NCBI GenBank assembly: GCA_001972305.1
Contig: BDDD01001609.1
Span: 208,690 to 272,689, forward strand
Source of the DNA: Cephalotus follicularis
Lineage: Eukaryota > Streptophyta > Magnoliopsida > Oxalidales > Cephalotaceae
DNA length: 64,000 bases
Direction of reading: 5' to 3'
Each line of letters starts with the position of its first letter. Positions within the stretch are counted from its first letter, which is position 1. The notes under the pieces were generated by a model. That model worked only from the letters and a program-made list of their open reading frames with translations. It was not told the DNA's origin and did no database searches. Position numbers and translations under genes: made by a program. This document shows, in pieces, positions 4,095-53,355 of this stretch.

Positions 4095-4420
4095 ATCGAC
4101 GCTGCCCAGCAAAGACATCGACCCCAGCCCATGGACGTCGATGTCTTTCGCTTTAGAATGCTGTATCATTGATTCCGTATCAAAGACATCGACGTCTTTG
4201 CCTTGAGATGTCTTCTCCCCAGGAAAGACATCAATGCTGAATATCGATAGGCATTCCCAGGCTACTTTTATTGAATTGCGTCGACGTCTTTGTTCAAAGA
4301 CATCGACGTCCTTTGGCCAGATCTCTATACGAATAGAGAAAGACATCGATGTCCTTCTACGGTTTTAAAGGAATGCCTTGATATGCATCGATGTCTTTGG
4401 CCAAGGACATTGACGCCTTT
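4095..4420. repeat. TCGA-core palindrome cluster, AAAGACATCGACGTCTTT type (5' LTR)
   Basis: About ten degenerate units lie in about 330 bp. Examples are AAGACATCGACCCC, ATCGATGTCTTTGGCC, CAAAGACATCGACGTC and GCGTCGACGTCTTTG. The consensus AAAGACRTCGACGTCTTT is a palindrome around TCGA. The cluster lies downstream of the TATA box, so it would be transcribed in R/U5. The 3' LTR copy is at 19270-19645. Confidence 0.8.
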
Positions 4421-6044
4421 CAGGCTGAATGGAACTTTTAACTGTTTTAAAGCTTTGTTTCAACTCTTTTTCACATTGCCACTTGACCGGACCCTCACTT
4501 GAGGTATTCAAGCGTTTGAAACAAACTTTTCCATGGTTTTCAAAGATTGAATTGATAAATTGATAGGGTGATAGCTTGAGCCATAGGCGACGATCCAGTG
4601 ACTTTCACCAACCAGATAGATACTTCTCCTTATCTCGTTGCTTCAATTGTCACCATCTATTGGCTACTAACCTGTTGATTGATTGATTGATTGATTGAGC
4701 CATAAGTGTTGTGAGTCTAAGTTCAGAATGTTGGTCGCTCATTCCCATTTCTCCATTAGACATCACCACTTATCGGCATTTGTACTAACAGATTGATTGA
4801 TTGTATTGTATGAATCCTATAGAGAGACCTTATGATTCGTATCAGCATATTAGGTTGTCGGCTCTGTCCACCTATTTCGTTGATTGTCTCATTTATTGTA
4901 TTGACTTCTCCCTTACAGTCGAATTTATCGATTGATGCTTCCGGAGATTTGTAGCTCCTTAATGGTTTAGTAGCTCCCCCATGGCTGAAGCACATCGGTA
5001 TTGTTACTGACTGACGATTGATGCTCCTGGAGGGTTGTAGCTCCCTAACGGTTTAGTAGCTCCCCCATGGTTGTAGCTCATCGATACTGTATTGACCCAG
5101 CCGTGGGCTGGAAGACCTATGTGTCCCAAACCTTATCAGTTTGAGACAAATGGGTAGATCTCCCACCCTTTTCGAAGGATTACCTTCCGTGTGATTGATC
5201 ATTGCTACTGATTGACATTGTACTGACCCGAGGTCGCATGCTCTATAGGATATGATTGTTTGATTGGGTGTTTGATACACCACCATTGAGTGTCTGTAAT
5301 TGATTGATTGTTATAGATCCTATCCATATGCTCTGTTATGGGCCAGTGTCATATGGATAGTCAGATCGCCAATTGTATTAATGCATTTTCCATATCATGC
5401 ATCAATATTGTACACCTCATATTTATATTGCATAGATTGTCACCGATATTGCACATTGTACATGCATACATGCTGCATGGGGTTTCTGCTTAGCCTTGTG
5501 GCTAACCCCATCCTTCGGGGTGGGGTTGTGTTGTACTTTTGTGTGCGTCATAGGTAGGGCAGCATGTAGCAGCGGACAGAAGGATTGAAGATTCGGTGCG
5601 TCCGCATTACCCTTTGAAGTGACAGAGCTTGGATTGTAGATTGTACCGATGAGACTGATGACGAGTAATGTTTTGTAATGAAATGACTGGTATAGTATTG
5701 TAACAGAATTTGTATTGTATGGTATTGCATAGATGGATTATTGTATTGTATCTTCCGCATATTATAAAATTTTAAGTTTTCTGTATTTTTATATTGCTAG
5801 TATCGACCATTGTATTGTATATTGGATTGAGAGTAATGCCACATGTCCGTCCTCCGGGTGCGAGGCATGAGAGACATTTGTTGGCCTGCTAGCGAAGTAT
5901 ATTAATGCGTTGATTGAGATAGATTGAATGGATTTGCATGATATAGGTTCTTATCTATTCATGCTATTGTTCATTTTGGATAAGAGATTAATATTGGAAT
6001 TGAAAGAGATTGTGTATGATCATCCCATTGTTTTCTTCTTATAG

Positions 6045-7022
6045 CGATGGATAATAGAGGAAGGCGTGGCTGACGGGGTGGAAGGAATGCTCATGCCCTT
6101 GCTCCTACCCCTGCTCCTATTGATGATGAATCGGCTCATGGTAATGTCTTCCTGGAGTATGATCCTAATGCTCCTCCAGCAGAGGCTGACCCTGAGGTAT
6201 GGAGGCAGTTGTGTGCCACTATGGCACAAATGCATACTCTGATGGGGCGCCTGCATGCTCGAGTGGAACTTGGACCAAGGAGGAATAGAGTCTGCACCAG
6301 GCCTACTCCTTCTTCTTGACAGAGTGGCAGTGACAGTGGCAGTGCTAAATCGCAGAAGACAAATAGTAGTCCCTCTCTTGGTTCTCATGGTAGCAGCCAG
6401 GGTAGCGGGAACTCATCTCGTTCTTGGAGGAGAGGCAGATCGAGGAACATACGTCGAGGAGATTGACCTTCAGCACCTAGTCCAGGTACACCCTTCAGAT
6501 TTTCTGGGAGTGGTAATCAGAGTGCTACGGTTCCTTTTGTGCATTGTCAGAAGACCAACCATACTTCTGATGATTGTAGATGGTTTTTAGGCCTTTGCTT
6601 GGTTTGTGGTGGTTCCAACCATATTGCCAGAGATTGTTCACAGAATTCCTGTCCTAGAGGATCGGATCAGACACAGCGGTCACCGTCCCCACAGGGATCG
6701 ACTACCAGTGTACCGTCTTCTTCCAGTGGGACTTCGCAGTCCAGAGGGAAACAACCTATGTGTTCTGCTCCGACAGTTCAGGCTAGAGTTTTTGCTATGG
6801 AACCGAGTGCTGCAACAGGGTTTGATGTTGTGATCAAAGGTACCATTCGACTCTTTCTGCTTCCAGCACGGGTCCTTATTGATCCGAGTTCATCTTATTC
6901 ATTCATTGCATTGTATTTTGTCTCCCATGTTGGTTTGAGACCCGAGTACCTTCCTTTCTTGATGGAGGTATCCATACCTCTCGGTGAGTCAGCGACTACC
7001 GATCGAGTATGTAGAGATTGTG
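6045..7022 (+). pseudogene. Tekay-like gag and start of protease, internally deleted
   Basis: The frame begins at the ATG near 6048 (MDNRGRRG then a stop) and carries an acidic, Pro-rich N-terminus ending ATMAQMHTLMGRL. It then jumps to a Ser/Arg-rich linker, so most of the capsid domain (Retrotrans_gag) is missing. A nucleocapsid zinc-knuckle segment follows (CLVCGGSNHIARDC, CX2CX4HX4C intact). Protease begins at about 6785. Its active site reads LIDPSSSYSF where the family has D-S/P-G-A, so the catalytic Gly is lost. Stops interrupt the N-terminal half. The frame is cut at 7022 by the LTR 7023-15481 and resumes at 15487. In a working element Gag would package the RNA and protease would cut the polyprotein. 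Confidence 0.75.
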
Positions 7023-7216
7023 TGTAATGTCTGGGATTTTCATATGTTGTAATTTCACGATGTAAATGTACTTTTAATGTGAAAATTAATAAAATGATGG
7101 ATTTTCTGACTTTGATGATGTTTTTCAAACTCTAATGATACTGATTTTGGAATAGGAATGTTAAAGAAATCTTAAAAGAGTAATTTGAAGTAAAACGGTG
7201 CAGTTTTGGGGAAAAA

Positions 7217-7370
7217 CGCGTCGACGCCTTTTGAACACATAGATGCCTTTGAAACAAAGAGACGCACGTGAATGCATGTGCATACACGTCGACGCCTGTG
7301 AAGAGCGTCGACACCTTTCAGGTAAAACGCTATAAGCATCGACGCCTTCATGAAAACATCGACGCTTGAT
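7217..7370. repeat. TCGA-core palindrome cluster, GGCGTCGACGCC type, block 1
   Basis: Units include CGCGTCGACGCCTTTTG, ACACGTCGACGCCTG, GAGCGTCGACACC and AGCATCGACGCC. The block starts about 195 bp from the LTR start. At the matching place in the related LTRs of 43462-53525 the units are of the CAGTCGACTG type. Confidence 0.78.
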
Positions 7371-8107
7371 AGACACGTTCTTCTGCTGACAGAATAACGT
7401 GCAAGAGGACAACTTAAGGTCACTTTGCAGGCACCTTGGGGCACGGACAATACATGTTGAGCATGTTGGCATGTTACTAGGCATGCAGGTGCTAGAAGAG
7501 AAGAGATGGCATGACACTTGGGTGTGCATGCAGGCTGAGAGATAGTCTTCATCACCTGCTCCTGCAAAGGAAAAGAGACATAGCTGGGAAAGAGAGAAAA
7601 ATGGGAAAATGTAATTAGTGAGATGGATGCAACGGACAAGTGAAGGAAGGGGAGAGTTTCCATGGAATAAATGCTCCTCTTCTCCCCACTGGTTCGTCTA
7701 AAAACACCTGAGTGTGAACAAGGAGAGAGGTTCCACCATTATTGAGCATTTTAGAGCTTGGAACTTGAAGCTTGTGGGCTAGCAGCAATGGGACGATCCT
7801 TGGAGCTGCTGTGGCCGGTTCTAGGACTTAAAGAGGTGGACTTTCTAGTTCATAACTTGGAACAAAGAGGTAGGGGGAGCCATAATCGTAATTGAGCTTA
7901 ATATTCATGCCAGGACAATGGTTTTTGTGCATAGTTCCATAGTTATTGAACTATTTTTGATCACCGGATCAATGCCATGTTATGCTGGGTATGTGATATG
8001 TATTTGCATGTTGGGTTTCTGACTTGATTACATATTGTCTTGCATGTATATGGACCATGTTGATTACTGTTTGTCACGTCGTGAGGAGGAAGATGACTGG
8101 TGCTCGA

Positions 8108-8360
8108 AACACGTCGACGCCTTTGAGGAACATCGACGCCTTTGGGTTATCTGCTTGGATATTGATGTATTATATGTTGATGCCTAAGGTTTCTACCTTA
8201 ACGCGTCGACGCCTTAGGCAAAACGCTGATGCTTAAGGTTCCATACCTTGAGAGTCGATGCGTATAAAGTTGGACATCGACGTCTTCGAACAGTGGAAAG
8301 CGCTGACACTAAGGACTTGAGCATTGACGCTTACAGGACAAAGACATCGACGCCTTCTTG
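8108..8360. repeat. TCGA-core palindrome cluster, GGCGTCGACGCC type, block 2
   Basis: Units include ACACGTCGACGCCTTTGA, ACATCGACGCCTTTGG, ACGCGTCGACGCCTTAGG, GACATCGACGTCTTCG and ACATCGACGCC. It lies about 1.1 kb into the LTR, the same offset as the CAGTCGACTG block of the related LTRs (44760-45040 and 52135-52400). Confidence 0.78.
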
Positions 8361-8717
8361 TACTGTTTGGAAGTTTTCTTACTTAATGATTCGAAACGAT
8401 CCCGATTCCAATTATGATGGATTAGAGCATTTGTATGCATTGCATATGTACTGTTTACTGCCTGTATGATAATCGTTTATGAATTGCTATGATTTCTAAA
8501 TTGTTAAATTGATTTTGAAATACACACATGAGTTTGAAAACTACTATGTTTGTGTACGAAATATAAAATGAGTATTGTTATATTTTTGAACATACTGGGA
8601 AAGTAATTTTCGCTACTAAAACAGTTTAAAGTAATTTCTATCTGTTGGAAATAAATATTTCAAATGTTTACGACTTTCGAAAATAGTTTGAAATAAACTG
8701 TCTGTGGTTGATCTAAC

Positions 8718-9914
8718 TGATGGAAACGGATAAACCGAATCCGGAGCCATAAATGGACTATGGTGTGTAGGGTGTAGAACAAAACAAAAACATACAATCA
8801 TGGCAGCGGAAGAACACCCAATAAAGCAAAACAAGTCCATTATGGCACGTCCACAGACCACATGGATCACCACAACATCAACAAAATTGAATTGGTGTCA
8901 CCATAGCAAACAATGGTGACACACAAGCATGGCAAGAAGAGAAGGACCAAGAGATATACCAGCGGGAGAAGGCTCCTTCTTTCTTTGCTGCTACACGCTT
9001 GAGTAGATTCCCTCTTTGATGTTCTCCAAGTCTCTGGAACAACAAGCAATCCAAACAGCAATAACAAAGTGCATGAATTTTCTCTCTCTCACTTAGCTTA
9101 GAAAAAGTAAATTGATATTGACCAATGAAGTCAATGATCAATCCACCCTAGATAAGCTCTTGCTTGGTGTATCACAGATGAAAGGAACACACACAATCTG
9201 CAGAGTGAAATCCGAGCTCTCTTGCCCAGCAAAAACCCAACTTTTTCACTTCTTTTTCCCTTTTTTCATTAACTGTAGAAAATGCCTATTACTAGCCCCT
9301 GATTTCTCTCTCCCACTCTCCCATTTGCTTAAGATCATGGTCCTCACTCCTAGGGAGTCTGTAGCCATGATCCCCACGTTCCCATAACATGCAAGAACAG
9401 GTGATGGATGCTGGATATGAGAGAGAAAACGTGCCCACGAAGTGATCTCATACACAGGTTGCATGTTCTGCTCAAAGACGTGGACGCCTTTCAAAAGACA
9501 TCGACGTCCATGCAATGTGGCACTAAAAACATCGATACTTTCGAAAAGACATCGACGTCTTTAAAAACGTTAGGCATCGACGTCTTTCTAAAAGACATCG
9601 ACGTCTTTGTCTGGCTAGTGAAGCATTAAGAGTCTAACTCTTTTAGTGATCTCATGTACCCTTCCAATATTGGTTAAGTAAGATCAAACATATGTGTTTC
9701 CACAAAATGCAAAATCCACATAACCGATATTTGACACCAAGACTTAATATGTCTAACATATTAAAGATCTAATCATTATAAGGCAGGGACCCTTTAAAAT
9801 CTTGGTTAAAACAAGAGGTGTTCATAAATTACCGAAATACCCCTTGGGTCCGGTTTAGCTATTCTAAATGGTCATTGACCAATTTAAATGCTATTGGAAT
9901 AATATCCAAATATT
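8718..9914 (-). repeat. Partial 3' LTR of copia 8718-14531
   Basis: It aligns with 12928-14093 from TGATGGAAACGG to AATATCCAAATATT, where similarity stops. It contains a palindrome cluster at about 9475-9612 (AAAGACATCGACGTCTTT type). Purine-rich GAAAAAGG stretches and TCTCTCTC runs occur in both copies. Confidence 0.8.
9475..9612. repeat. TCGA-core palindrome cluster in copia 3' LTR
   Basis: Units include AAAAGACATCGACGTCCATG, AAAACATCGATACTTTCG, AAAAGACATCGACGTCTTTA, GGCATCGACGTCTTTC and AAAGACATCGACGTCTTTG. The 5' LTR counterpart is at 13684-13820 with a few substitutions. Confidence 0.8.
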
Positions 9915-10983: not shown

Positions 10984-11889
10984 ACCTTATGTACTTGCAC
11001 AATGCAAAACATCAGAAGAGACTCCAGCACCAGTAACTCGACAATCCTTTTTTCAGTGTCCGGTCTTACCACACTGAAAACTAGCACCTTCAGCCGCTAA
11101 CTTCTTCAAATGATCTTTGGCAACACCCTCACTAGCTCCAAGCTTCCCCTTCTTCTTCTTTTGCTTCTTCTTACCCTTGCCTTTTGTGTTGACAAGCATG
11201 AGTACGCCCTTCCCTTTACAGGAAGACGAGGCACTGCCCTTTCCTTGGGCAGACCTAGAAGGAAGAAGTAGGGAGTGGGTCTTTGACTTTCCAGAGTCAA
11301 AATCAGCCTCAGCTGTCCTCAACATAGCAATCAGCTCAGATAGAGTTACCTCTATCTTGTTCATGTGAAAATTCACCAAGAACTGTGAGAACGACTTAGG
11401 AAGGGACGTCAAAATAAGATCTACATATAGATCATGGTCCATGACAAACCCTAATTGAGCCAGCTGCTCAATCATGTCTATCATTTTCAATCCATGCTCA
11501 TGGACTGAAGCTCCATCTTGCATCTCAGCTTTAAAGAGTTTGCGAGATAGATTGAACCTTTGAGTCCTAGACTCAGCTCCATACATCTCCTGGAGATGGA
11601 GTAGTATAGCAGACAAGGTCTCAATCTTTTCATTCTGATGCTGAAGCTCAGGTGTCATCCCAAGAAGGGCAAGACATCTAGCCTGCTCGTCATCCTCTAG
11701 CCACTTGGCTAGTCGCTCGCTCTCTTCGGGCGTCGGATCTTCACCCAGTGAAGGAGGCCCCCCAGTCATTACATAGGCCATTTTATTGGCCGTAAGAACG
11801 ATCTTGAGGTTGCGGTGCCAATCGTTGAAGTTGGGCCCCTCAAGTTTGTTTGTCTCTAAAATGCGGGACATAGCAGATTGAAAAGTCAT
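10984..11889 (-). pseudogene. Copia gag with damaged zinc knuckle
   Basis: A 278-residue frame starts MTFQSAMSRILETNKLEGPN. It shows the copia gag pattern: an N-terminal domain (NFNDWHRNLKIVL), a UBN2-like middle (TLSAILLHLQEMYGAES, FHMNKIEVTLSEL) and a Lys-rich tail (GKGKKKQKKKKGK). The CCHC knuckle reads SFQCGKTGH-stop-KKDC: the first Cys is Ser and the usual Trp codon is a TGA stop. Beyond the stop the frame runs into protease. Gag would form the virus-like particle. The start follows the leader and primer site at 12916-12926 in the usual order. Confidence 0.85.
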
Positions 11890-11919
11890 TTTATAGCAAC
11901 CTAGATAAGGAAATATTAA

Positions 11920-12915
11920 GTTGAGGCAGCATCTATTCCAATTTTAATATATGACAACCATAACACTTGGTCTTTAGTCCTTATGGTTCCTCCCACTATT
12001 CTAATCGTATCCCATACCCCCATATGGAATTTGAGAAGTCCAACTTCCTAGTGGGGATTGGAATCCATCGCAATCATATTATAGCCTCAGCTAGGACATG
12101 ACAAACTATAATATATCCAATGGGTAGGCTTTCTTGCAAATTTGTATCCAATACATAAACTAGGTCAATATCCTTTTCGGGCCATCCATTGTGCATAAGA
12201 TCTATATTATATCCAATATAATAAAACCCCAAATAAAACAAATGCCATAAATAATAACCAATTACTCAATTTGATTCAAGGATTGTTAATTGATCAAACT
12301 CCCACTAAATCAAGCAATGGTTTTTGATTTTCTAAGTGCCAAAATGTATAAAATCCAATTTTATTAAAAACAGTTTTTTGTTTTACAAAAACACGTCGAC
12401 GCTTATCTAAAAGCATCGACGTATTTTCTGGGAATACATGAACAAGATGTCGATGTTCATCCAGAACATCGACGCGTTTCCTGGAAATGATGAACGAGGC
12501 ATCGACGTCTTTCAATAACGTCGACGCGTTTCCTGGAAACATGAACAAGACATCGACGTCTATAAATAACGTCGACGTGTTTCCTGAAAACATGAATAAG
12601 ACATCGACGTCCATCAAGAACATCGACGTCTTTAACCCCCTGGGCTATTTCTGCATTTCGAAAAATGCAGGAGACAATGGTTTAGACTTTGGCATTCCAT
12701 TCTGGCAATCCAAAATGCACTATACATGTTCCAAACACAACTCTAAACACATTAAAACAACATTCCCAGGACAAAAACACAATGAAATCCAATTTCATGC
12801 AATTTTCACTAAGGCACTTTGAAAATCTAGTTTGATCATCAAACACATCCATGAATTAAACCATTAATCAGTACATCATCTAAAGCATAAATTCAATCAA
12901 GGATGATGTGGGACT
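11920..12915 (-). other. Copia 5' leader between primer site and gag
   Basis: This is non-coding, about 1 kb. The gag-proximal half (11930-12260) resembles 33540-33920, the leader of another copia element. A dense palindrome cluster lies at 12390-12632 (separate entry). Confidence 0.6.
12390..12632. repeat. TCGA-core palindrome cluster in copia leader
   Basis: Eleven or so units, among them ACACGTCGACGCTTATC, AGCATCGACGTATTTTC, GCATCGACGTCTTTC, AACGTCGACGCGTTTCC, GACATCGACGTCTAT, AACGTCGACGTGTTTCC and AACATCGACGTCTTTA. They alternate with GGAAACATGAACAAG-like spacers. The block is outside the LTR but would be in the 5' untranslated RNA. Confidence 0.8.
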
Positions 12916-12926
12916 CTCTGATACCA
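12916..12926 (-). other. Primer binding site (initiator tRNA-Met type)
   Basis: The minus strand reads TGGTATCAGAG one base from the LTR end, complementary to the 3' end of plant initiator tRNA-Met. Confidence 0.85.
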
Positions 12927-12927
12927 C

Positions 12928-14531
12928 TGATGGAAACGGATAAACCGAATCCGGAGCCGTAAATGGACTATGGTGTGTACGGTGTAGAACAAAACAAAAA
13001 TATACAATCATGGTAGCGGAAGAACACCCAATAAAACAAAACCAGTCCATTATGGCACGTCCACATACCACATGGATCACCGCAACATCAACAAAATTGA
13101 ATTGGTGTCACCATAGTAAACAATGGTGACACACAAGCATGGCAAGAAGAGAAGGACCAAGAGATATGCCAGCGGATGAAGGCTCCTTCTTTCTTTGCCG
13201 CTACACGCTTGAGTAGATTCCCTCTTTGATGTTCTCCAAGTCTTTGGAACAACAAGCAATCCAAGCAGCAATAACAAAGTGCATGAAGTTTCTCTCTCTC
13301 ACTTAGCTTACAAAAATAAATTGATATTGACCAATGAAGTCAATGATCAATCCACCCTAGATAAGCTCTTGCTTGGTGTATCACAGATGAAAGGAACACA
13401 CACAATCTACAGAGTGAAATCCGAGCTCTCTTGCCCAGCAAAAACACAACTTTTTCACTTCTTTTTCCCTTTTTTCATTTTTTGCAGAAAATGCCTATTA
13501 CTAGCCTCTGCTTTCTCTCTCCCACTCTCCCATTTACTTAAGATCATGGTCCTCACTCCTAAGGAGTCTGTAGCGATGATCCCCATGTTCCCATAACATG
13601 CAAGAACAGGAGATGGATGCTGGATATGAGAGAGAAAATGTGCCCACGAAGTGAGCTCGTGCACAGGTTGCACGTTCTGCTCAAAGACGTCGATGCCTTC
13701 CAAAAGACATCGACGTCCATGCAATGTGGCACTAAAAACATCGATACTTTCTAAATGACATCAACGTCTTTAAAAACGTTAAGCATCGACGTCTTTCTAA
13801 AAGACATCGACGTCTTTGTCTGGCTAGTGAAACATTAAGAGTCTAATATTGGTTAAGAAAGATCAAACATATGTGTTTCCACAAAATAAAAAATCCACAT
13901 AACCGATATTTGACACCAAGACTTAATATGTCTAACATATTAAAGATCTAATCATTATAAGGCAGGGACCCTTTAAAATCTTGGTTAAAACAAGAGGTGT
14001 TCATAAATTACCGAAATACCCCTTGGGTCCGGTTTAGCCATTCTAAATGGTCCTTGACCAATTTAAATGCTATTAGAATAATATCCAAATATTGCGACTA
14101 TCCAAATAGTGTCTCCTACGCGGGTCCTGTTCAGTGTACACGCTCCCAGCGCGCACCCCGTATTTGCCCTAGTGTCTAACACAGATGGTAGTGAGAGAAT
14201 CCATCCTCCAATTCCATGAGCAGGCAATATACGCGCAAGTGTATCCGGTTCACTAATGCCCACAAAGTGAACCTATGACTTGGAACTAATTTGACATATG
14301 GAATAAGGTAACCAGTCTCACAGCCTCCATGCCAGGGATCCAACCTTATGTCAGGGCATCACTAGTATAAGTAGGTAATTAAAAAACTACTTCAATTATG
14401 TGATAAAATACAAGTGATATAGCCATAACAAATTTAGCACGCATCATATATAAGGAATACGATTGTTTCATACAATATTAGATATAAAATGACAGTCCAT
14501 CCAATGGCTTATCGGGTCACTATATCTAACA
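12928..14531 (-). repeat. 5' LTR of copia 8718-14531
   Basis: A 1.6 kb LTR ending at the TSD CTAAC. Its outer 440 bp resembles the outer end of the LTRs at 24472-25408 and 28586-31084: GTGAACCTATGACTTGGAAC, GGCATCACTAGTATAAGTAG and the ATATCTAACA terminus. A palindrome cluster lies at 13684-13820. Confidence 0.85.
13684..13820. repeat. TCGA-core palindrome cluster in copia 5' LTR
   Basis: Counterpart of 9475-9612. Units include AAAGACGTCGATGCCTTCC, AAAGACATCGACGTCCATG, AAAACATCGATACTTTC, AGCATCGACGTCTTTC and AAAGACATCGACGTCTTTG. Confidence 0.8.
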
Positions 14532-15486
14532 CTAACGATCATTACTGTACCGCTTACTGCACTGTTTACTATGACTATTCACTGTTTACTCTGTGAATTT
14601 ACTGTGTTTGTGCTTGAGTCACTAGTTGCGTGGCGGGGACTACCAGAGTTGGCTAGTGGTAGGGTTGACCAAGGGGCCAGGTGTTGGCTGGGTAACTCAC
14701 TGTACTGTACCGTTGTCTTGCTTGGTTTCCTGGAGAAGGGATCTAAGTGGGGGTGTAACGTGGGGCGAGGAGTTGGCGGCGTTGCACATACTGCCTGCCT
14801 GTTTGTTAGTCCCTTTGTGGGCTTACTGTACCGCCTGCTAGTCCTTCTCAGACATTACTGTGCCTGTTGATGTATCCCTGGCCGGGTTACTACTGTACTG
14901 TATTGCATACATATATTTTCATATATATGTCCCTACTATTATTTTACTCTACTGCTAACTTATATATATTTATATATATATATATATAAACTGGTATTTT
15001 CTACTGCACTGCATCATCTACGCATACATTTCATGACATGCATGTAATGTTGATCCCAAACTACTTTTATGACTTAGCCGAGTGAGGACAATGGCTAACC
15101 CCCTACTTTACAGATTGATGCAGTTAACCAGCTTGGGAATCAACATGGATGAAGTACAAATTTTTAATAATGTTTTACCAGGGGTTATGTCCCCTTTGGG
15201 TGTTGTGTACTGTATTTTTCAGTTTCTAGACTTTTGATGTTATTGGATAATGTATTATGGATCACGCTCCATTTTGTGGGCTTTTAATTATGACAGACTT
15301 GTATTGGGTAGCGTGCAGTATGGGATGCACGTTACGTGTTTTTTCAGCTTATGAGTTTAATGCTTCTGCAACTGACATCTTGTTTGAAAAGTTTAAATTT
15401 TACGGTTTTTGCATGAGCTGAATCTCAATGTTAATTGCCTTTACACCCTTTATGTGTGTTTATCGAAAGCGGGGTGTGACATTGTG

Positions 15487-34819: not shown

Positions 34820-35150
34820 GCCAGAGCATCGATGCTTTAAGACAAAGCGTCGAAGTTAACGCGTCAAGCGTCGACGGTTCCTTAAGCGTCGATGCTTTTG
34901 TCGACTTATGGCGCTGTATTATACGCGTAAACGTTGACGCGTTTTCTCAAAAGCGTCGAACTTTTACTGCGAAGGTGTCGATGCTTTTCTCAAAAGCGTC
35001 GACGCTTTAGATCCTAGCGTATCAACGCTTTAGCGTGTAGGAGTCGACGCTTTTCTCAAAACATCGACGCTTATGCGTCTGGTGCGATTTTCTGCAGTGG
35101 TATCGCGTGTAAACGTCGATGCTTTTCTCAAAGGCATTGACGCTTCTGCG
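34820..35150. repeat. TCGA-core palindrome cluster, AGCGTCGACGCT type (copia leader)
   Basis: Units include GAGCATCGATGCTTT, AAGCGTCGACGGTTCC, AAGCGTCGATGCTTTTG, AAAAGCGTCGACGCTTTAG, GGAGTCGACGCTTTTCTC and ACATCGACGCTTATG. It is in the 5' leader, the same place as the cluster 12390-12632 of another copia element, but with a different motif type. Confidence 0.8.
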
Positions 35151-40461: not shown

Positions 40462-41605
40462 TGAAAACCCTATATGGCAACCCTTATAGTAAATGGTTTG
40501 CGGAAAAACAAATTAAACTATGAACATAAACAATCACACAAGAACCATAAAACAATTACAAGTAATAAAGAGAGAAAGAGTTAGAGAGATGCAAACACGG
40601 TTTATAGTGGTTCGACTTAACTCTTACCTACGTCCACTTTTCCCAAGGTAGCTCCTTGAGATTCCACTAAAAATCACTAGTACCCTTTGATTTTTGGTTA
40701 CGGGTGCAAATCAAAGAAACCACCTTACACCTTGATTTTGGGTTACGGGTGCGAATCAAAGAAACACCTAACAAGAGTTTGCTCCCCACCAGGTTCACTC
40801 CCCGTGATAATCCTTCTAAGGGTTCATTCCCCTTGATTATCTCATTAAGGGTTCACTCCTCCTTTTTACAATGAAATATTTGGTTTTTGTGTTTACAAAT
40901 AACCTCTCAAAGATTTGATAGGAAAATGATAAAGTTCTTGAAGAGCTTTGATGAATTTGGAAGTTGTTTTTGCTCTTGATGATCTTCTCTCTTGTTTGAT
41001 GAAGTTGTTCAAGTTTTACTTGTTCATCTTTGATCTTATGTTTTTAGCTGAATTTGAATTGTTAGAGCTACAAATTTTGCCTTGGGAAGTGCTCATTTGG
41101 TCTTGAGACTTGTTACTTCTGCATTGGGAATTGTTACTTTTGTCTTGAGAATTATTGTTTCAGTCTTGGGACTTGTTACTTGAAACGGCGCTCAAAAAGT
41201 GGTCCAGTAAATTTCTGCCCGCGCGCAAAGCATCGACGCTTTTGCTCTAAGCGTCGCCACTTATGTTACCGTTAGAAGTTTGAATTTGAAATTCACTGCT
41301 TGAAGCGCTGAAGCTTTAGAAATGATGTCGACGGTTTGGCACAGATCGCTGACGCTTTTTCTTGAGCGTCACCGCTTTGAATGAATCAATTGACAATAAA
41401 AGTCTCTAGAATAAACCACGGATATGAGCTTCTTAAGCGTTGACACCTTGGTCCAAACCGCTGACGCTTTCTTGTGACCATCGGCGCTTTGTCCTGATTC
41501 TACACTTCTTTATTTTGTTTATCTTTTCTTGCACAGAAAGTAACAATGTTAAATGCAAATATGTAATCGTTAAAATTCAGGATTGAGACAAAAAGTCAAC
41601 AATCT
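40462..41605 (-). repeat. 3' LTR of the Sirevirus-like copia element
   Basis: The first 340 bp match 53950-54288 (ACGGTTTATAGTGGTTCG, CTTGATTTTGGGTTACGGG). The inner end matches the fragment at 2957-3177. It includes the palindrome cluster at 41228-41490. Confidence 0.82.
41228..41490. repeat. TCGA-core palindrome cluster, AGCGTCGACGCT type, degenerate (copia LTR)
   Basis: Units include AAAGCATCGACGCTTTTGC, TAAGCGTCGCCACTT, GATGTCGACGGTTTGG, CGCTGACGCTTTTTC, GAGCGTCACCGCTTTG and CATCGGCGCTTTG. It is more decayed than the other clusters. Confidence 0.65.
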
Positions 41606-42180
41606 CCCCATTTTTGATGATTATAAAAATTTTCTACATTAAGGGAATAAATTTATAACAGTTAAAACAAAGTACCTTTGAAAGATAAATTCCCTTTAGA
41701 TACCAACTGAAAGTCTTTAGATAAACTCCCCCTTAATATGACAAACTCTTTTTAAGCTTCCTTTTAACTTAAAGTCTAATTCTCCCCATAAGACTAAATT
41801 TCAAATTCAAAACAAAAATTTATGCATATAATTCTATTTATAGCTTCCTCTTAACATAAACTTCCCCTTAACATAAGTTGTCAATTTCTCCTTAAGCATA
41901 AACATTCTCCCCCTTTTTTGTTAGCATCAAAAAGAGTATTTCAACAATTTTGATACCGAATAGACAATTTTAAAAGGATACCAATTGAAAGAAAATTTTA
42001 AAAGAATACCAATTGTAAGTGAATCCATTGAAAGTTAAAACAATGTCAATGAAAAGGATCAAGTGTAAAGAATTTCTAATAAGGGTATAATGATATTATC
42101 AACTTCATATCATTACCTCCCCCTCAACATATGTTGCTTTCTCCCCAACATATGTACTTGAATATTTTGATTTTAGCTTC
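41606..42180 (-). other. Multiple polypurine tracts ahead of the copia 3' LTR
   Basis: On the minus strand GGGGGAG- or GGGGAGA-type runs recur at about 41610, 41725, 41785, 41870, 41905, 42118 and 42140. Repeated polypurine tracts in this place are a described feature of Sireviruses. No coding frame is seen. Confidence 0.6.
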
Positions 42181-43461
42181 AAGTACACCTGCAAAACAGA
42201 GTTTAAACTTTTTGTACCCAAGTGAATTTAGGTCCTTGTAGGTTAGTACAAAAGTTCCTTTGGGAACCCAAACTTTCTTAGTTTTATCAAAAAACAAAAT
42301 TCTTATAATGAAAGCATGAAGTAAAAACATGTCCTAGTCTACCACAATAGTTACAAACAATTTTGGGCTCATTTTTCTTAACAAAGAAATTATTAAAGTG
42401 TTTGACATTATTCATTTGTTCATAGCCTAGACCAGCTTTGTCAAATACACATCTTTGTAATCCTAGAAGATTATCCAATTTAGCATTACTACTTGAAAAC
42501 TTAGAAAAAGTTTTCTTCAAGGCATCAATTTCAAGTTTTAACTTTTCATTTTCTTCCTTTGAATCATTTGACAATTTCAACGAAACATTTAAAATTTCAA
42601 TCTCATTTATATAGTTGCTATTCTCATTCTTTAGATTTTCAATTTCATTTAACATTGAAATAGTATCTTTCTTTAGAGATTTATTTTTCAAGCAAATATT
42701 TTTATATTCATGAAATAAATTTTCATAAGAATCTTGTAACTCTTCAAACGAAAAATTTACCTCATCTTCTTCCTCCTCCTCAATTTCCATGAAAGCAATG
42801 TGGGCTACTTCTTTATTACTTTCTTCTTCGGAGCTCGATGAGTCACTATCATCTCATGTAGCTACAAAAGCATTCTTCTTCTTGGATTGCTCTTTGTTGA
42901 ATTTTTCTTTCTTCTTAATATTTGGGCAATCACTCTTGAAATGACCCGGCTTTTTGCACTCATAGCACGTTGGTTCTTCCTTTTTGCTCGAATCTTCATC
43001 TTGAGGGAACTTCTTTTTGAAAACATTTTTACCCTTTTGACTTTTGAGGAACTTCTTAAATTGAGAAGTGATAAGAGCCATATCACCATCTTCATTACTT
43101 TCACTATCTTCTTTCCAAGCCTTTAAAGCAATTGTCTTCTTCTTTTTGGTCTCCACGTGCCCATGATTTTTCATCGTTGTCTCATGTGTCATCAAGGAAC
43201 CAAGGAGCTGCTCAAGTGTAAGAGTTATGAGATCCTTAGCTTCCCCAATCACCGTTACCTTTGGAGTCCAACTTTTCGGCAAGCACCTTAAAATCTTCCT
43301 AACAAGTTCTTGGTTATGATAAGACTTTCAAAGATTTTTAAGAGAATTTATAATAGTAGTAAAGCAAGTAAACATATCACTAATACATTCATCATTATGT
43401 ATCATAAACAATTCATATTCATGTACAAGCATGCTAATTTTAGATTCCTTTACTTGGTTTG
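42181..43461 (-). pseudogene. Sirevirus-like gag, C-terminal part
   Basis: The frame continues from 53526 across the gypsy insertion: NQVKESKISMLVHEYELF, then NSLKNL and a stop, ELVRKILRCLPKSWTPKVT, LEQLLGSLMTHE. A nucleocapsid knuckle CYECKKPGHFKSDC (CX2CX4HX4C) follows, then an acidic segment interrupted by a stop at 42855. A long coiled-coil-like stretch comes next (SFEELQDSYENLFHEYKNI, EKLKLEIDALKKTFSK), then a second CCHC knuckle CNYCGRLGHVFTSC. After KKVWVPKGTF the pol frame does not follow. Gag with a coiled coil and two knuckles fits Sirevirus-type elements. Confidence 0.83.
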
Positions 43462-44759
43462 TGTCACACCCCGTTTAAGAGAAACGACATTAAAGCAGTA
43501 AAGGCAATTAACACACAAAATACAGCTCATGTAAAATCCATAAAATTTAAAACTTTAAACAGACTATCAGTTGCAGACGCATTTAAAATCCATAAGCTGT
43601 AAAAAACTGTAGCGTGCATCCCATACTACATGCTACTCATTAGCCCAACATTGTTAATCGCCCACAACGGAGCGTGAGTTACAGTACAAGATTAAAATCC
43701 ATCAGTAAACAAAACCATAACAACGGTATATCAGTCCCTTAACCAAAACCAGGTTTATTACAAGACAGGAGAATAAGTAAAACTAAGAACAATATAACAC
43801 TTGTTCTTCATCCACGCTAGTCCCACAGGTCCACTGCATCAATCTGTAAAGTAGGGGGTTAGCCTTTGTCCTCACTCGGCTAAGCCATAAAAGCAGTTCG
43901 GGATTAAAATTAAATGCATGTCATGATATGAATGCATGAATGATGCAGTGCAGTAGAATTCCAGTTTATATATATACGAAAATATATATATTAAACAGTA
44001 CAGTAAATATCAGTGGTACATATATAAGAAAATGTATGTATGCAGAAACAGTACAGTAGTAACCCGAACAGGGTCACATCAACAAGCACAGTAATGTCCG
44101 AGAAGGACCAACAGGCAGTGCAGGATGTCCACACAGGACTACAACAGGCAGGATGTCCACATAGGACCACAACATGCAGTATGTGTAGCGCCGCCAACTC
44201 CTGGCCCCACGCTACACTCCCACTCCGGCCCCTACATCAGGCAACCGAGCGAGGCAACAGTACAGGATAGTGAGTTACCCAGCCATACTCCTGGCCCCTA
44301 GGTCAACCCTACACTAGTCGGCGCTGGTAGTCTCCGCCATGCAACCAGTGGCTCAAGCACAAACACACAGCAATTCACAGAGCAAAGAGTGAATTCAAGC
44401 AGTAACAGTACAGTAAACAGGACAGTAGTGATCCTTTAGATCCACAACAGGCAGTTGTTTTCCAAAATGTTTCCAAAAGTGACAACATTTGAAAATAGGC
44501 ATTTTCAGTAGAAAATACTTTTAAACAGTACAGTAGTGGTAATCGTTTTCCAAAGGTATTTGGAAATACGATATCAATATTTGTTTTGTACTCAAACTAG
44601 TAGTTTCAATTCACATATGCATTTCCAAAGTAATAACACATTAGAAATCATAATTCGAGTACAAACAGGCAGTAAAACAGTACATATGCAATGCATACAA
44701 ATGCTCAATGCATCCTAGCAGGAATCGAGATCGTTTCGTATCGTTTTAGGCAAACAGCA

Positions 44760-45040
44760 GTCCAACCAGTCGGCTGGAATCCTCACCAGTTGACTGTTCT
44801 GGGTCGAGCAGTATGAGTAGTCGACTGGTTCCTTCTACCAGTCTACTGTCCATTAGGCAGTCAGTTGTTGTTCTTCAACAGTCGACTGTTTACAGTACAC
44901 CACACGAGAACATTCCCAGATTACCATCTTCTGGGCAGTACGAAGTATGAACAGTCGACTGCTTTCCATTGGAAGTCGACTGGTCTCATTGAGTAGTCGA
45001 CTGTATTCCTTCGACAGTCGGCTGCTCTGCGAGCCAGTGG
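44760..45040. repeat. CCAGTCGACTGG palindrome cluster, inner block (3' LTR)
   Basis: Ten or so units in 280 bp: CCAGTCGGCTGGAA, GTAGTCGACTGGTTCC, CCAGTCTACTGTCC, ACAGTCGACTGTTT, GAAGTCGACTGGTC, GTAGTCGACTGTATT, ACAGTCGGCTGCTC. The counterpart in the other LTR is 52135-52400. Confidence 0.85.
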
Positions 45041-45839
45041 CATACAAATCTATCTAACTACTCCAACGAATCATGGTAAGCAGATAAATCAAGCTTAGGG
45101 ATAGGAATATAACCACAGAGTTTCATATCATCCATATGACAACACGTTCAACATACATTTCAACATGCAACCAAATCCATGTTAAGGTTCAACATGCATA
45201 CACTTGATCACATTTGATTCACAGTAACAAGCATAACAGCTCCCAAAAACAGTGGCAATTACGTCCTAAAACCAGTAACTACAAATCACATAACCAGGCA
45301 TTTCAATTCATGGAACATGCAGTAAGTTTAAACTCAAAATGTCATTTCAACTTCCCCTACCTTTGATTCCAAGTTAGGAATCTATAAGTCCACCCTTTGC
45401 GTTTCAAATCAGTGACGTTCTGAGCTCCCCAGAAGCTCCAACTCCAAGTCCAGCAGCTCCAAGGATAGCTCCCACCTTGAGCTCCAAGCTTCAACAATGG
45501 GCAACACTCCTCTTCCCTCTTTTCTTTGTGGTTTCTCTCTACTATCTCTGTGATTCTCAACTTAACAGTACCAGGACGAGAGGGATGATTGAGACGTTTT
45601 TATGCAGAGCTTTTCCTCTTTTTCTTCCTCCCCTCCTCACATGGCACTAAATGCCACACTCTCCCACTCACATACAAGCACACACACACAAGGCCAATTT
45701 CTCTGCCCTATGAAGTCTGCATGATCCACAGGTGTCTCTTCCTTTCATCCTTTTGGCTGCATGAAGCACAGGTGGCCTCAAACTTCCAATGTCAGTTGTA
45801 ACATGTGATTTCTATCACATCCAATAAACAGAGCATGAT

Positions 45840-45990
45840 CCAATCGACTACCTTTCCCTGGCAGTCGGTTGTTCGCCTGGCAGTCTATTGCCAGGTGTCA
45901 CAATAGTTGGCCAGTCGACTGGTTCATCCTACCAGTCGACTGCCCCTCTATGCAGCCATCCAGTCGGCTGGTCCTACATACCAGTCGACC
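45840..45990. repeat. CCAGTCGACTGG palindrome cluster, outer block (3' LTR)
   Basis: Units include CAATCGACTACC, GCAGTCGGTTGTTC, CCAGTCGACTGGTTC, CCAGTCGACTGCCCC, CCAGTCGGCTGGTCC and CCAGTCGACCGCCCC. The counterpart is 53200-53355. Confidence 0.83.
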
Positions 45991-46211
45991 GCCCCAGTAT
46001 AATTACCAAGCAATCACACTTCTAAGTATATAACCGATTAAAATCAACATCACCATAATTTGGAAAAAATCATCAACTACGAAAAAATCCATCATATTAT
46101 TAATTCCACAATTAAGGTACAATTACATTGTGAAATTACAGTACATAAAAATTACGGGCGTTACATCCACCCCTCCTTCAAAAGAATTTCGTCCTCGAAA
46201 TTTAAAACAAT

Positions 46212-48966: not shown

Positions 48967-50721
48967 CTACATACTCCTCTTCGGTGGCAAGGATCCCAAA
49001 TCATCAGGGAACATATCCGGAAATTCGCACACAACTGGAATTTCCTCCAAACTCAAGCCTTTCTCCTTCCTACGATCAATCACATACGCCAGGTATCCCT
49101 CGCATCCTTTCTCCAGGTATCTCGATGCTCGAATAAAAGATATGATCGGTGTCGAGAACCCCTTGTCTCCCTTGAACTGAAAAGTCATTCCGTCGGGCAG
49201 TCAAAAATCCACAGTCTTATGGTAGCAATCCATACGAGCATAGTGTGCTGATAGCCAATCCATCCCAAATATAACGTCGAAGTCACGGATAGGCAACACA
49301 ATCAAATCTGCATACAAGGAAATACCTGCCATAGACATCTCACAACCTCTATATACCGAGTCAGTATACATGGAAGTCCCAGTCGGTGTACTCACATCAA
49401 GTATGTATGACATGCAGTCAGGGGTAACATCTAAACAAGATGCAAAACGTGCAGATATGAAAGAATGTGATGGTCCAGAATCCATCAGTACTCTAGCAGA
49501 ATAACCATATATATACAGAGTACCTCCAACAACAGAAGTCGATCCTGGAACCTCTGTCTGAGCAAGTACAAAAATTCTACCTTTTGCGATGCCCTTGCCG
49601 GTATCCCTCCTCTGTGACGGTCCCGCCGCCGTGCCGCTACTACTCCCCGATCCAGTAGGCGCTGTAGCAGAACTCTTTGGACAATCTTTCACTGAATGAC
49701 CAGGTGCCCCGCACCTCAAACACCAGCCATTGAACCTCCAGCATTCTTTCTGTTGGTGACCGGTACGACCACAGTAATAGCAACCTCCGGATCTAGCATT
49801 ACTCCCTTGGCTAGGAGTACCCTGTGAAGCTGTCTGCTGAGACTTGTTCTTCGACGACTTCGTCGGAGAACCACCATCTTGCCATTTCGACGATGCCGGT
49901 CGGGACTGTGTAGGACTCTGTTTACTCTCTTTTGTGCGAGCTCTCTCAGCCCGGTCCTCACTGGATATCGTCTCCAACAGTCTAGCTTTCTGAACAAAAG
50001 TCCTCAGCTCCATGGCTCTAATCCTCGACCGAAGATCCGGTCGCAAACCACTCAGGAATCTCCGTATCTTCTTCGCTTCATCAGCTACCAGATAAGGTGA
50101 ATATCTGGCTAGCTCCATGAACCTTGCTTGATACTCAGCCACCGTCATCTCACCCTGTCGCAACTCCAAGAGCTCAGTCTCTCGTCGCTCTTGCTCAATA
50201 TGCGGAACATAAGTCTCCAAGAACTCCGTCTGGAATCTGTCCCAAGTACTGTCCAGTCTCTGTGTTTCCCATTTTGCCCTAACCATCTCCCACCAATGAG
50301 TGGCCTCACCCCATAGGCGGTACACAGCAAACTTCAGCTTCTGAGTATCAGTACAGTCCATCACTTCAAAGATCTTTTCCAGATCCTGCAGTCATCTCTC
50401 AGCAATAGTAGCATCAAGTTCCCCACAGAAACTGGGTGGATTCAGTCTCATGAACTTTTCAATATCTCTCCCGAATTGGTTACCATCATCCCCCGGGCAG
50501 TGGTCGGGAGCTCCATGTTGCGGTCGAGCCTGCGCGTGGTACTGGCGCATCTCCTCCGCATTAGCCCGATTAAAGGCCGTCTACTGCTGAAAATAGTCTA
50601 CGATCCAAGCCATCGGATCTCTGTCATCTTGGGGAAAATTCATTCCTTGCTGATTATTCGCTTCATCAGGGGCATCGGCTCCAACAGATCTAGCCAAGGC
50701 ACGTATTCTCCTTCGGTCCAT
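48967..50721 (-). pseudogene. Tekay gag and protease
   Basis: The start ATG at 50721 (MDRRRIRALARSVGADAP) lies just inside the primer site. A TAG after VDYFQQ (50580) and a TGA in AER-LQDLEKIF (about 50391) are premature. From 50364 a 387-codon frame holds the capsid domain (YRLWGEATHWWEMVRAKW, TFLETYVPHIEQERR-like block, GLRPDLRSRIRAMELRTF). Two zinc knuckles follow: CYYCGRTGHQQKEC and CLRCGAPGHSVKDC. Protease follows with active site ARVLMDSGPSHSFIS and the FDVIFGMDWLSAHYA block. After a stop at 49201 the linker to RT (YLEKGCEGYLAYVID, VVCEFPDMFPDDLGSLPP) ends at 48967. Two knuckles in one gag are worth noting. Confidence 0.9.
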
Positions 50722-50820
50722 TAGTTCCTATAAAAAGATTGGCAGTCAGTCACGACTTTTAGGAAAACAGTTCATTAATTCCTGAGGAAAATATCCTAGC
50801 TAAGCATATATATGGAATAT

Positions 50821-50832
50821 GCTCTGATACCA
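50821..50832 (-). other. Primer binding site of gypsy 43462-53525
   Basis: The minus strand reads TGGTATCAGAGC four bases from the LTR end (GTGTGACA), matching initiator tRNA-Met. Confidence 0.88.
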
Positions 50833-52134
50833 CTGTTGTCACACACCGTTTAAGAGAAACGACATTAAACCAGTAAAGGCAATTAACACACAAAACACAG
50901 CTCATGTAAAATCCATAAAATTTAAAACTTTAAACAAACTGTCAGTTGCGGAAGCATTTAAAATCCATAAGCTGTAAAAAACCGTAGCGTGCATCCCATA
51001 CTACACGCTACTCATTAGCCCAACATTGTTAATCGCCCACAACGGAACGTGAGTTACGGTACAAGATTAAAATCCATCAGTAAACAAAACCATAACAACG
51101 GTACATCAGTCCCTTAACCAAAACCAGGTTTATTACAAGACAGGAGAATGAGTAAAACTAAGAACAATATAACACTTGTTCTTCATCCACGCTAGTCCCA
51201 CAGGTCCACTGCATCAATCTGTAAAGTAGGGGGTTAGCCTTTGTCCTCACTCGGCTAAGCCATAAAAGCAGTTCGGGATTAAAATTAAATGCATGTCATG
51301 ATATGAATGCATGAATGATGCAGTGCAGTAGAATTCCAGTTTTTATATATACGAAAATATATATATTAAACAGTACGGTAAATATCAGTGGTAGATATAT
51401 AAGAAAATGTATGTATGCAGAAACAGTACAGTAGTAACCCGGCCAGGGTCACATCAACAAGCACAGTAATGTCCGAGAAGGGCCAACAGGCAGTGCAGGA
51501 TGTCCACACAGGACTACAACAGGCAGGATGTCCACATAGGACCACAACAGGCAGTATGTGTAGCGCCGCCAACTCCTAGCCCCACGCTACACTCCCACTC
51601 CGGCCCCTATATCAGGCAACCGAGCGAGGAAACAGTACAGGACAGTGAGTTACCCAGCCATACTCCTAGCCCCTAGGTCAACCCTCCACTAATCGGCGCT
51701 GGCAGTCTCCGCCATGCAACTAGTGGCTCAAGCACAAACACACAGCAATTCACAGAGCAAACAGTGAATTCAAGCAGTAACAGTACAGCAAACAGGACAG
51801 TAGTGATCGTTTAGATCCACAACAGGCAGTTGTTTTCCAAAAGTGACAACATTTGAAAATAGGCATTTTCAGTAGAAAATACTTTTAAACAGTACAGTAG
51901 TGGTAATCGTTTTCCAAAGATATTTGAAAATACGACATCAATATTTGTTTTGTACTCAAACAAGTAGTTTCAATTCACATATGCATTTCCAAAGTAATAA
52001 CACATTAGAAATCATAATTCGAGTACAAACAGTATAAGCAGGCAGTAAAACAGTACATATGCAATACATACAAATGCTCAATGCATCCTAGCAGGAATCG
52101 GGATCATTTCGTATCGTTTTAGGCAAACAGCAGT

Positions 52135-52400
52135 CCAACCAGTCGGCTGGAATCCTCACCAGTCGACTGTTCTGGGTCGAGCAGTATGAGTAGTCGACTG
52201 GTTCCTTCTACCAGTCGACTGTCCATTAGGCAGTCGGCTGTTGTTCTTCAACAGTCGACTATTTACAGTACACCACACGTGAACATTCCCATATTACCAT
52301 TTTCTGGGCAGTACGAAGTATGAACAGTCGGCTGCTTTCCATTGGAAGTCGACTGGTCTCATTGAGTAGTCGACTGTCTTCCTTCGACAGTCGGCTGCTC
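52135..52400. repeat. CCAGTCGACTGG palindrome cluster, inner block (5' LTR)
   Basis: Units CCAGTCGGCTGG, CCAGTCGACTGTTC, GTAGTCGACTGGTTCC, CCAGTCGACTGTCC, GCAGTCGGCTGTTG, ACAGTCGACTATTT, GAAGTCGACTGGTC and ACAGTCGGCTGCTC. Confidence 0.85.
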
Positions 52401-53199
52401 TGCGAGCCAGTGGCATACAAATCGATCTAACTACTCCAACGAATCATGGTAAGCAGATAAATCAAGCTCAGGGATAGGAATATAACCACAGGTTTTCATA
52501 TCATCCATATGACAACACCTTCAACATACATTTCAACATGCAACCAAATCCATGTTAAGGTTCAACATGCATACACGTGATCATATTTGATTCACAGTAA
52601 CAAGCATAACAGCTCCCGAAAACAGTAGCAATTACGTCCTAAAACCAGTAACTACAACTCACATAACCAGGCATTTCAATTCATGGAACATGCAGTAAGT
52701 TTAAACTCAAAATGCCATTTCAACTTCTCCTACCTTTGATTCCAAGTTAGGAAGTCCACCCTTTGCGTTTCAAATCAGTGAAGTTCTGAGCTCCCCAGAA
52801 GCTCCAAGTCCAGCATCTCCAAGGACAGCTCCCACCTTGAGCTCCAAGCTTCAACAATGGACAACACTCCTCTTCCCTCTTTTCTTTGTGGTTTCTCTCT
52901 ACTATCTCTGTGATTCTCAACTTAACAGTACCAGGACGAGAGGGATGATTGAGACGTTTTTATGCAGAGTTTTTCCTCTTTTTCTTCCTCCCCTCCTCAC
53001 ATGGCACTAAATGCCACACTCTCCCACTCACATACAAGCACACTCACACAAGGCCAATTTCTCTGCCCTATGAAGTCTGCATGATCCACAGGTGTCTCTT
53101 CCTTTCATCCTTTCGGCTGCATGAAGCACAGGTGGCCTCAAACTTCCAATGTTAGTTGTAACATGTGATTTCTGTCACATGCAATAAACAGAGCATGAT

Positions 53200-53355
53200 C
53201 CAGTCGACTGCCTTTCGCTAGCAGTCGGCTGTTCGCCTGGCAGTATGTTGCCAGGTGTCACGACAGTTGGCCAGTCGACTGGTTCATCCTACCAGTCGAC
53301 TGCCCCTATATGCAGCCATCCAGTCGGTTGGTCCTACATACCAGTCGACTACCCC
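53200..53355. repeat. CCAGTCGACTGG palindrome cluster, outer block (5' LTR)
   Basis: Units CCAGTCGACTGCC, GCAGTCGGCTGTTC, CCAGTCGACTGGTTC, CCAGTCGACTGCCCC, CCAGTCGGTTGGTCC and CCAGTCGACTACCCC. Confidence 0.83.

Follow-up and report, generated by a model that had tools for sequence, protein, structure and literature searches.

Helically spaced arrays of TCGA-centred palindromes in long terminal repeats and leaders of gypsy and copia retrotransposons of Cephalotus follicularis

Introduction

How retrotransposons recruit host transcription is an open question, as is why palindromic motifs persist in their long terminal repeats (LTRs) despite attracting silencing. The question is raised by a 64,000-nucleotide stretch of the Cephalotus follicularis genome (GCA_001972305.1, contig BDDD01001609.1, positions 208,690 to 272,689), referred to here in its full length as the window. 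An initial annotation, made from the sequence without database searches, had listed fourteen clusters of short palindromes, always centred on TCGA, in the LTRs and leaders of unrelated gypsy and copia elements. It had offered a shared host-factor binding site, a hairpin or small-RNA trigger, or exchange of a regulatory module between families as explanations. All fourteen clusters are present at the positions given (Table 1, in which the host elements are labelled A to F and copia-1). We propose, with a probability of about 0.6, that they are cis-regulatory arrays of phased dyad sites that are read by a homodimeric protein, a host factor or factor family, and control transcription of the elements.

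Enrichment of TCGA-centred palindromes

Counting as near-palindromes those TCGA words whose flanks match at 4 or more of 6 pairs, the window has 41, whereas 60 dinucleotide shuffles average 8.35 and never exceed 15, a density that base composition does not explain. At 5 or more of the 6 pairs the count is 15 versus 1.27 in shuffles (maximum 5). Apart from TCGA, ATAT and TATA are the only ones of the 16 cores with counts above their own shuffle maximum. When every core was scanned for groups of at least three near-palindromes within 250 bp, TCGA gave 6 clusters, ATAT/TATA 6 and the remaining cores none. The 3.9 kb of cluster sequence contains 96 of the 242 TCGA words of the window.

The half-site TCGAYGYYTTT occurs 43 times in the window, with 0.2 expected, and every copy lies inside a cluster: 8 in each LTR of A, 4 in C, 7 and 6 in the LTRs of copia-1 and 3 in its leader, 6 in F and 1 in E, with none in B or D. 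The half-sites differ between elements, being GACGCYTA-like in D and GACTGGT in B, with GAYGYYTTT as the consensus otherwise. Each full site would consist of two inverted half-sites joined at TCGA, approximately WARRCRTCGAYGYYTW, or CCAGTCGACTGG in one lineage. The constancy of the core claimed earlier nearly holds, although TCAA and TTGA cores with the same flanks also occur. Many copies are quasi-palindromes: 29 of the 49 CR-TCGA-YG sites in the window carry one purine/pyrimidine (R/Y) mismatch and 20 are symmetric there, and in a wider site set 66 of 150 carry one such mismatch. In copia-1, LTRs and leader share one oriented variant: of 14 sites with a single R/Y mismatch, counting both LTR copies, 13 have it. 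Since this orientation is nearly uniform, CpG decay after insertion was judged unlikely as the sole cause of the asymmetric form.

Clusters within LTRs start approximately 100-700 bp into the LTR. Calls of TATA boxes are ambiguous, and the second cluster of B lies downstream of one TATA candidate. The observed/expected CpG ratio is 1.2-2.1 in the clusters of A, C, copia-1, D, E and F, as against 0.2-0.9 outside the clusters of the same LTRs and leaders, and 0.6-0.9 in the B clusters. In the copia-1 leader it is 2.03 in the array (12370-12650) versus 0.22 elsewhere. With a G+C fraction of 0.40-0.53, the clusters mostly fall short of the usual G+C criterion for a CpG island.

Abundance across the genome

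The motif is not confined to these few copies. Genome-wide searches were made in the one assembly of 1.577 Gb (9746 contigs), in which AAGACATCGACGTCTT has 47,365 matches versus 211 for a reversed control, and AAAGACNNNNNNGTCTTT has 59,091 sites versus 444. The roughly 100 matches listed for AAAGACNNNNNNGTCTTT come from contig 1 alone, and an RTCGAY centre is missing in only five of them. Beyond the window, we sampled 20 hand-chosen 10-kb stretches from large contigs (200 kb, including 2,575 N). In these, 17.1% of 620 TCGA words match at 4 or more of their 6 flanking pairs; for the other 15 cores, taken singly, the share is 3-9%. TCGA clusters, 12 in total, are found in 10 of the 20 stretches; for the other cores the number of clusters is 8 for ATAT, 7 for TATA, 3 for AATT, 2 for TTAA, 1 for GATC and 0 for the remaining ten. 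The 16-bp consensus at 14 or more of 16 positions has 164 sites, versus 3 for the reversed consensus. This is about 0.8 per kb and, as a rough extrapolation from 200 kb, roughly 1.3 million sites per genome. The B-type palindrome, with up to 2 mismatches, gives 52 versus 3.

In a domain scan of 20 open reading frames (ORFs) from array loci, one locus (L032) has copia-type domains and seven (L034, L041 and L045-L049) have Ty3-type gag, protease, integrase or polymerase pieces; these ORFs share a locus with the array and may belong to the array-bearing element. Two further arrays, L044:806-1090 and L050:2448-2664, lie at loci matching PF04195 ('putative gypsy type transposon'), above the Pfam cut-off for L050 and below it for L044, and perhaps represent a further gypsy lineage carrying arrays.

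Spacing and helical phase

Neighbouring sites lie 19-22 bp apart, and longer gaps tend toward 10.4-bp steps. This spacing rule is a new finding beyond the initial annotation, and no TCGA arrays with helical spacing were found in print in searches of an open-access subset of the literature. In the window the spacing was evaluated in 10 of the 14 clusters, with one copy taken from each LTR pair, against random placements keeping at least 16 bp between sites. At each of four site thresholds, gaps of 18-22 bp are frequent (45 of 77, 38 of 66, 32 of 60 and 22 of 47), at a level that none of 4000 random placements reached. They occur in all eight window contexts (A, B, C, the copia-1 LTR, the copia-1 leader, D, E and F) at the two looser thresholds, and in seven, E being the exception, at the strictest. 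The longer gaps, mostly near 31, 42, 51 and 72 bp, follow a 10.5-bp phase (p at most 0.0005), and after merging like gaps within families the values are 0.003, 0.006 and 0.024 at three thresholds. The gaps in the copia-1 leader run 20, 34, 19, 33, 19, 32, 19, 32 and 19 bp.

The same rule appears beyond the window. The modal gap in the 20 stretches is 21 bp (31 of 113 gaps), and the phase p values by threshold are 0.015, 0.0012 (threshold 14) and 0.0014, with merging within clusters only. B-type (CCAGTCGACTGG) sites at other loci also show gaps of 20-22 bp. When sites were masked and flanks and spacers compared, the 33 clusters from window and stretches were grouped into 17 contexts without detectable homology, with both arrays of LTR C, and likewise the copia-1 LTR and leader, standing as separate contexts. 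A gap of 19-22 bp is present in the richest cluster of each of the 17.

The strongest of the spacing tests is one that is blind to the motif and uses plain TCGA-TCGA distances. In the 200 kb these peak at 21 bp (35 pairs) and 42 bp (16 pairs), with smaller odd-turn peaks at 30-31, 50-52, 70-73 and 91-92 bp. Summed by hand from the histogram in 5-bp bins, even turns (40-44, 61-65, 82-86, 103-107) hold 36, 33, 29 and 17 pairs and odd turns (29-33, 50-54, 71-75, 92-96) hold 22, 26, 23 and 23, while bins between turns (24-28, 34-38, 45-49, 55-59, 66-70, 76-80, 87-91, 97-101) hold 12, 13, 12, 11, 19, 15, 12 and 16. The cosine of the phase is 0.246 in the stretches, where 400 jitters reach no more than 0.094, and 0.239 in the window, where 400 jitters reach no more than 0.178. 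Ranked for doublet spacing among all 256 4-mers, GTCG, CGAC and TCGA take places 1-3; they do so again in phase among the 176 4-mers with at least 200 pairs.

Change between related LTRs

LTR C had been assigned to the same family as the LTRs of element B. The two are homologous, aligning well at both ends and poorly in the middle, but C is a solo LTR and carries a different palindrome, GCGTCGACGCC in place of the CCAGTCGACTGG of B. In both, the first array consists of three doublets, 141 bp long in B and 138 bp in C, starting 180-200 bp into the LTR, and the second array ends near the same conserved block. Base-for-base coincidence of sites was sought and not found; the overall plan alone agrees. 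The flanks have changed while core, plan and spacing were kept, as expected if the putative reader had changed or had been replaced by a relative.

A copia LTR at 24472-25410, 75-76% identical to that of copia-1, is without the 640-bp block that bears the array and has a short repeat at the junction. Arrays can therefore be lost or gained.

Alternative explanations

The arrays may have a common descent, in which template switching or gene conversion carried array pieces of some 20 bp from family to family and these later expanded into minisatellites, functional or not. The longest tracts shared between non-homologous stretches, with one LTR or leader compared per family and C only up to position 8716, are two identical 19-mers common to gypsy A and copia-1, both on the palindrome. 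A match of 27 bp at 89% identity, palindrome-spacer-palindrome, between element F and the copia-1 leader is the one hint of shared descent extending past a single site, and the 51-bp tandem period of that leader, like the oriented variant common to the LTRs and leader of copia-1, also fits such a history. Identity nevertheless stops at 19 contiguous bases, and no shared flanks or spacers are detectable between the 17 contexts; a single recombination tract is rejected, and the module exchange suggested earlier is not supported as a transfer in one piece. Single units of about 20 bp may still have passed between families. Neutral tandem growth predicts neither the same helical spacing everywhere nor odd-turn gaps, and B has the same spacing with a different sequence, so that we regard common descent as an unlikely explanation of the arrays. 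A reader encoded by the elements themselves, co-evolving with its motif as VANC does in VANDAL transposons, is less likely still. It would suit the family-specific variants around a constant core, the concerted change between B and C and the non-coding position of the arrays, in which they resemble VANC targets (PMC5735166). However, Pfam scans of ORFs from these degraded elements (30 of 69, plus six shorter ones) revealed no additional DNA-binding domain, and one site common to several lineages is a better fit for a host factor.

The palindromes could instead act as RNA, with neighbouring sites forming hairpins in the transcript that feed small-RNA silencing or serve the element. Four of the 14 clusters were folded and all beat dinucleotide shuffles (z of -10.4, -7.3, -8.8 and -3.0), although 1 of 100 shuffles folded as well as the last, a B cluster. 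Sirevirus palindrome clusters of maize are small-RNA hot spots (PMC5311732, PMC10760457), and processing into 21-nt RNAs might be reflected in gaps at multiples of 21. Good folding is expected of any palindromic array, whatever its role, and the odd-turn peaks are not multiples of 21. Selection on a stem would match changes across the arms, but site by site no compensatory change was found overall: arm pairing is 0.506 versus 0.493 in within-family shuffles for 96 sites, where arm position 2 alone of nine rises above its shuffles, and 0.578 versus 0.588 in within-cluster shuffles for 150 sites, where none of seven positions does. The arms are weakly constrained except for purine/pyrimidine identity at positions 1, 3 and 4, and they would be two half-sites read by a putative symmetric protein. 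RNA wobble was rejected as the cause of the asymmetric mismatch, which on the sense strand is G.U in 17 sites and A.C in 12, with copia-1 and C in opposite directions. Because the spacing is helical and the arms do not covary, protein reading on DNA is favoured over a selected hairpin, and the reader is probably a dimer or dimer of dimers. We thus consider a role as RNA improbable; the hairpin trigger of the initial annotation is a possible by-product and not the apparent target of selection, and the shared host-factor site is the best supported of its three options. An artefact of chance or composition, or meaningless CpG-rich repeats, could be entertained given the raised CpG ratios of the non-B clusters. 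The reversed controls, the excess over shuffles and the position-specific spacing already contradict this, leaving it hardly any credence.

Comparison with known systems

The nearest known system is that of the palindromic repeated motif (RM) boxes of Sirevirus LTRs, from which the arrays differ in core, host lineages and phasing. As described by Bousios et al. (2010; PMC2829016), RM boxes are many-copy and dyad-symmetric, occur in an internal non-coding region as well as the LTR, and have the same core in otherwise dissimilar elements, in all of which the TCGA arrays resemble them; the CpG richness of RM boxes and their early LTR position, upstream of the TATA box, may also be shared. As given there, the core is CGG-CCG, as against RTCGAY with GAYGYYTTT or GACTGGT half-sites here, and TCGA is the centre of 2 of the 13 boxes listed, Vitis CGGTCGACCG and Tnd-1 ACAATCGATTGT. 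That text describes RM boxes as Sirevirus-specific and absent from classic copia elements, whereas the arrays occur in copia and also in Ty3 elements (the chromodomain element B and the Athila-like D). It places internal copies before the envelope gene, in contrast to the leaders found here, and the helical 21-bp doublets that mark our arrays were not met in it. A, B, C, copia-1 and F reach the RM-box level of at least 8 copies per element (depending on threshold, 9-11 sites in A, 10-16 in B, 12 in C, 16 in the LTR and leader of copia-1 and 12 in F), while D (7) and E (4-9, by threshold) are borderline. A repeated AGGGGGAG polypurine tract was looked for in element E only and is present there. 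With core and lineages different, we do not class the TCGA array as an RM box, but it probably works like one.

For maize, the text of Martin et al. (2023; PMC10760457) describes CACCGGACNNNGTCCGGTG palindromes in two superfamilies of transposable elements, copia and Helitron, with strong folding. They have no TCGA core, Ty3 elements there generally lack an obvious structured peak, and no spacing rule was met in that text. Small RNAs concentrate on Sirevirus palindromes in maize (PMC5311732). The VANC arrays of VANDAL transposons (Hosaka et al. 2017, PMC5735166; PMC10398659) offer a functional analogy only: they are short non-coding motif arrays, read by a protein and differing between related elements, as LTRs B and C do here. 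One VANC motif is also found in AT9TSD1, which is unrelated to VANDAL (PMC5735166). In the same text VANC targets are non-palindromic 8-9-mers in DNA transposons, read by a transposon-encoded protein, and in this they are unlike our arrays.

The CBFHV element, RYCGAC, is bound by CBF/DREB proteins. GTCGAC and ATCGAC contain it, but a degenerate 6-bp motif cannot account for a dyad of 12-18 bp in spaced pairs.

Host elements of the window

Self-comparison, Pfam, and matches to primer-binding sites and polypurine tracts resolve the window into nested LTR elements (Table 1). In their polymerase region A and B are 67.5% identical; the chromodomain match of A is weak (E 0.011) and under the Pfam cut-off. 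For the gag-protease ORF at 49204-50391, 29 of the 30 best-listed protein matches are from Cephalotus follicularis, mostly at 70-91% identity. The Athila type and LTR start of element D follow from the sequence preceding the LTR, judged by eye to be that of Athila elements. Two assignments made earlier need amendment. The Sirevirus-like cluster is present but comprises more than one site, with degenerate sites extending over 41215-41500, and the cluster at 34820, given as a copia leader, is in a leader that follows a primer-binding-site match, although no coding sequence of copia type turned up for element F.

In element E (41601-43462 and 53525-54288), into which element B has inserted, the ORFs scanned between the LTR pieces show fragments of gag and no pol domain, and E is possibly a gag-only non-autonomous element. 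An ORF at 1214-1747, at the left end of the window, matches DUF4216, a domain often found in CACTA-type transposons. A 2-kb direct repeat (55905-57906 and 60159-62132, 92% identity) contains GC-rich 73-bp tandem repeats (57419-57617, 61640-61990), and is perhaps an LTR family without TCGA arrays. Rfam and ARAGORN scans found nothing, and searches of viral contigs with the two-site pattern and the integrase of B returned no relatives.

Table 1. Host elements and TCGA arrays of the window (positions as counted in the window)
Feature	Position	Strand	Remarks
Element A, Ty3, Tekay-like	LTRs 3417-5858 / 18580-21065	+	LTR identity 91.5%
Element B, Ty3 chromovirus	LTRs 43462-46165 / 50837-53525	-	LTR identity 95.4%; gag-protease, RNase H, integrase, chromodomain
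C, solo LTR related to B	7023-8716 + 14534-15481		within protease region of A; target-site duplication TTGTG
copia-1, inserted in C	LTRs 8716-9914 / 12926-14533; gag 11056-11943	-	LTR identity 93% (8716-9914 / 12926-14093)
Element D, Athila-like	integrase 37856-38662; LTR start near 39920	+	LTR start judged by eye
Element E, Sirevirus-like	3' LTR 41601-40465	-	ends by eye; behind three AGGGGGAG polypurine copies
Element F	primer-binding-site match 35278, then leader	-	superfamily unproven
9-site array, 5' LTR of A	4080-4420	+	sites and gaps
First array of C, three doublets	7190-7385	+	sites and gaps
Second array of C	8090-8385	+	sites and gaps
Array, 3' LTR of copia-1	9460-9640	-	LTR pair, sites and gaps
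Leader array of copia-1, five doublets	12370-12650	-	between primer-binding site (12926) and gag
Array, 5' LTR of copia-1	13660-13850	-	LTR pair, sites and gaps
11-site array, 3' LTR of A	19255-19660	+	LTR pair, sites and gaps
Array in leader of F	34810-35140	-	primer-binding-site match
Array ~160 bp inside 3' LTR of D	40070-40410	+	adjoining integrase
Degenerate array, 3' LTR of E	41215-41500	-	loosest site threshold
Second CCAGTCGACTGG array, 3' LTR of B	44740-45060	-	LTR pair, chromodomain
First CCAGTCGACTGG array, 3' LTR of B	45830-46025	-	LTR comparison, sites and gaps
Second array, 5' LTR of B	52110-52430	-	LTR pair
First array, 5' LTR of B, three doublets	53190-53395	-	sites and gaps

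Discussion

From the motif, its spacing and its position in the window elements, we infer a host-encoded protein that binds the arrays as a dimer and acts on transcription. With neighbours two helical turns apart and longer gaps tending to whole turns of about 10.4 bp, most sites would lie on the same face of the DNA. The likeliest reader would be a homodimeric DNA-binding protein, sitting on adjacent sites as a dimer of dimers and acting in the LTR, and in certain elements also in the leader, to control how the element is transcribed. Binding sites for a single host factor, or for one family of such factors, would have arisen in several gypsy and copia families by convergence or been acquired by them repeatedly; LTRs B and C would differ by a concerted shift in flank specificity that left core, cluster positions and spacing as they were.

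Several observations weigh against regulation by such a protein. The arrays are not more conserved than the remainder between LTR pairs, the differences inside versus outside being 7.3 vs 6.3% in A, 4.6 vs 3.1% in B and 5.2 vs 4.0% in copia-1. The copia LTR without the 640-bp block implies that this subfamily can do without the array, or that the copy in question had lost it. Gaps near 37, 45 and 67 bp in the 20 stretches are off phase, and across the 17 contexts the phase of longer gaps gives p 0.02, weaker once family redundancy is removed. The pooled 4-mer counts include high-copy families uncorrected, and a head-to-tail repeat of a 16-20 bp unit would alone yield many gaps near 20 bp.

At its widest, the proposal would have one helically phased dyad, in copies of the order of a million (a rough extrapolation from 200 kb) across many unrelated families of both superfamilies, serve as a converged genome-wide regulatory code that a single family of host factors reads and in which one lineage or more has switched specificity in concert. 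We put forward this wider form tentatively, at somewhat less than even odds. In one genome, several independent families have the same readable site and follow a defined rule of spacing, and LTRs B and C provide a natural switch of specificity. With these, the factor would be findable by DNA pull-down or DNA affinity purification sequencing (DAP-seq), and the convergence itself becomes testable.

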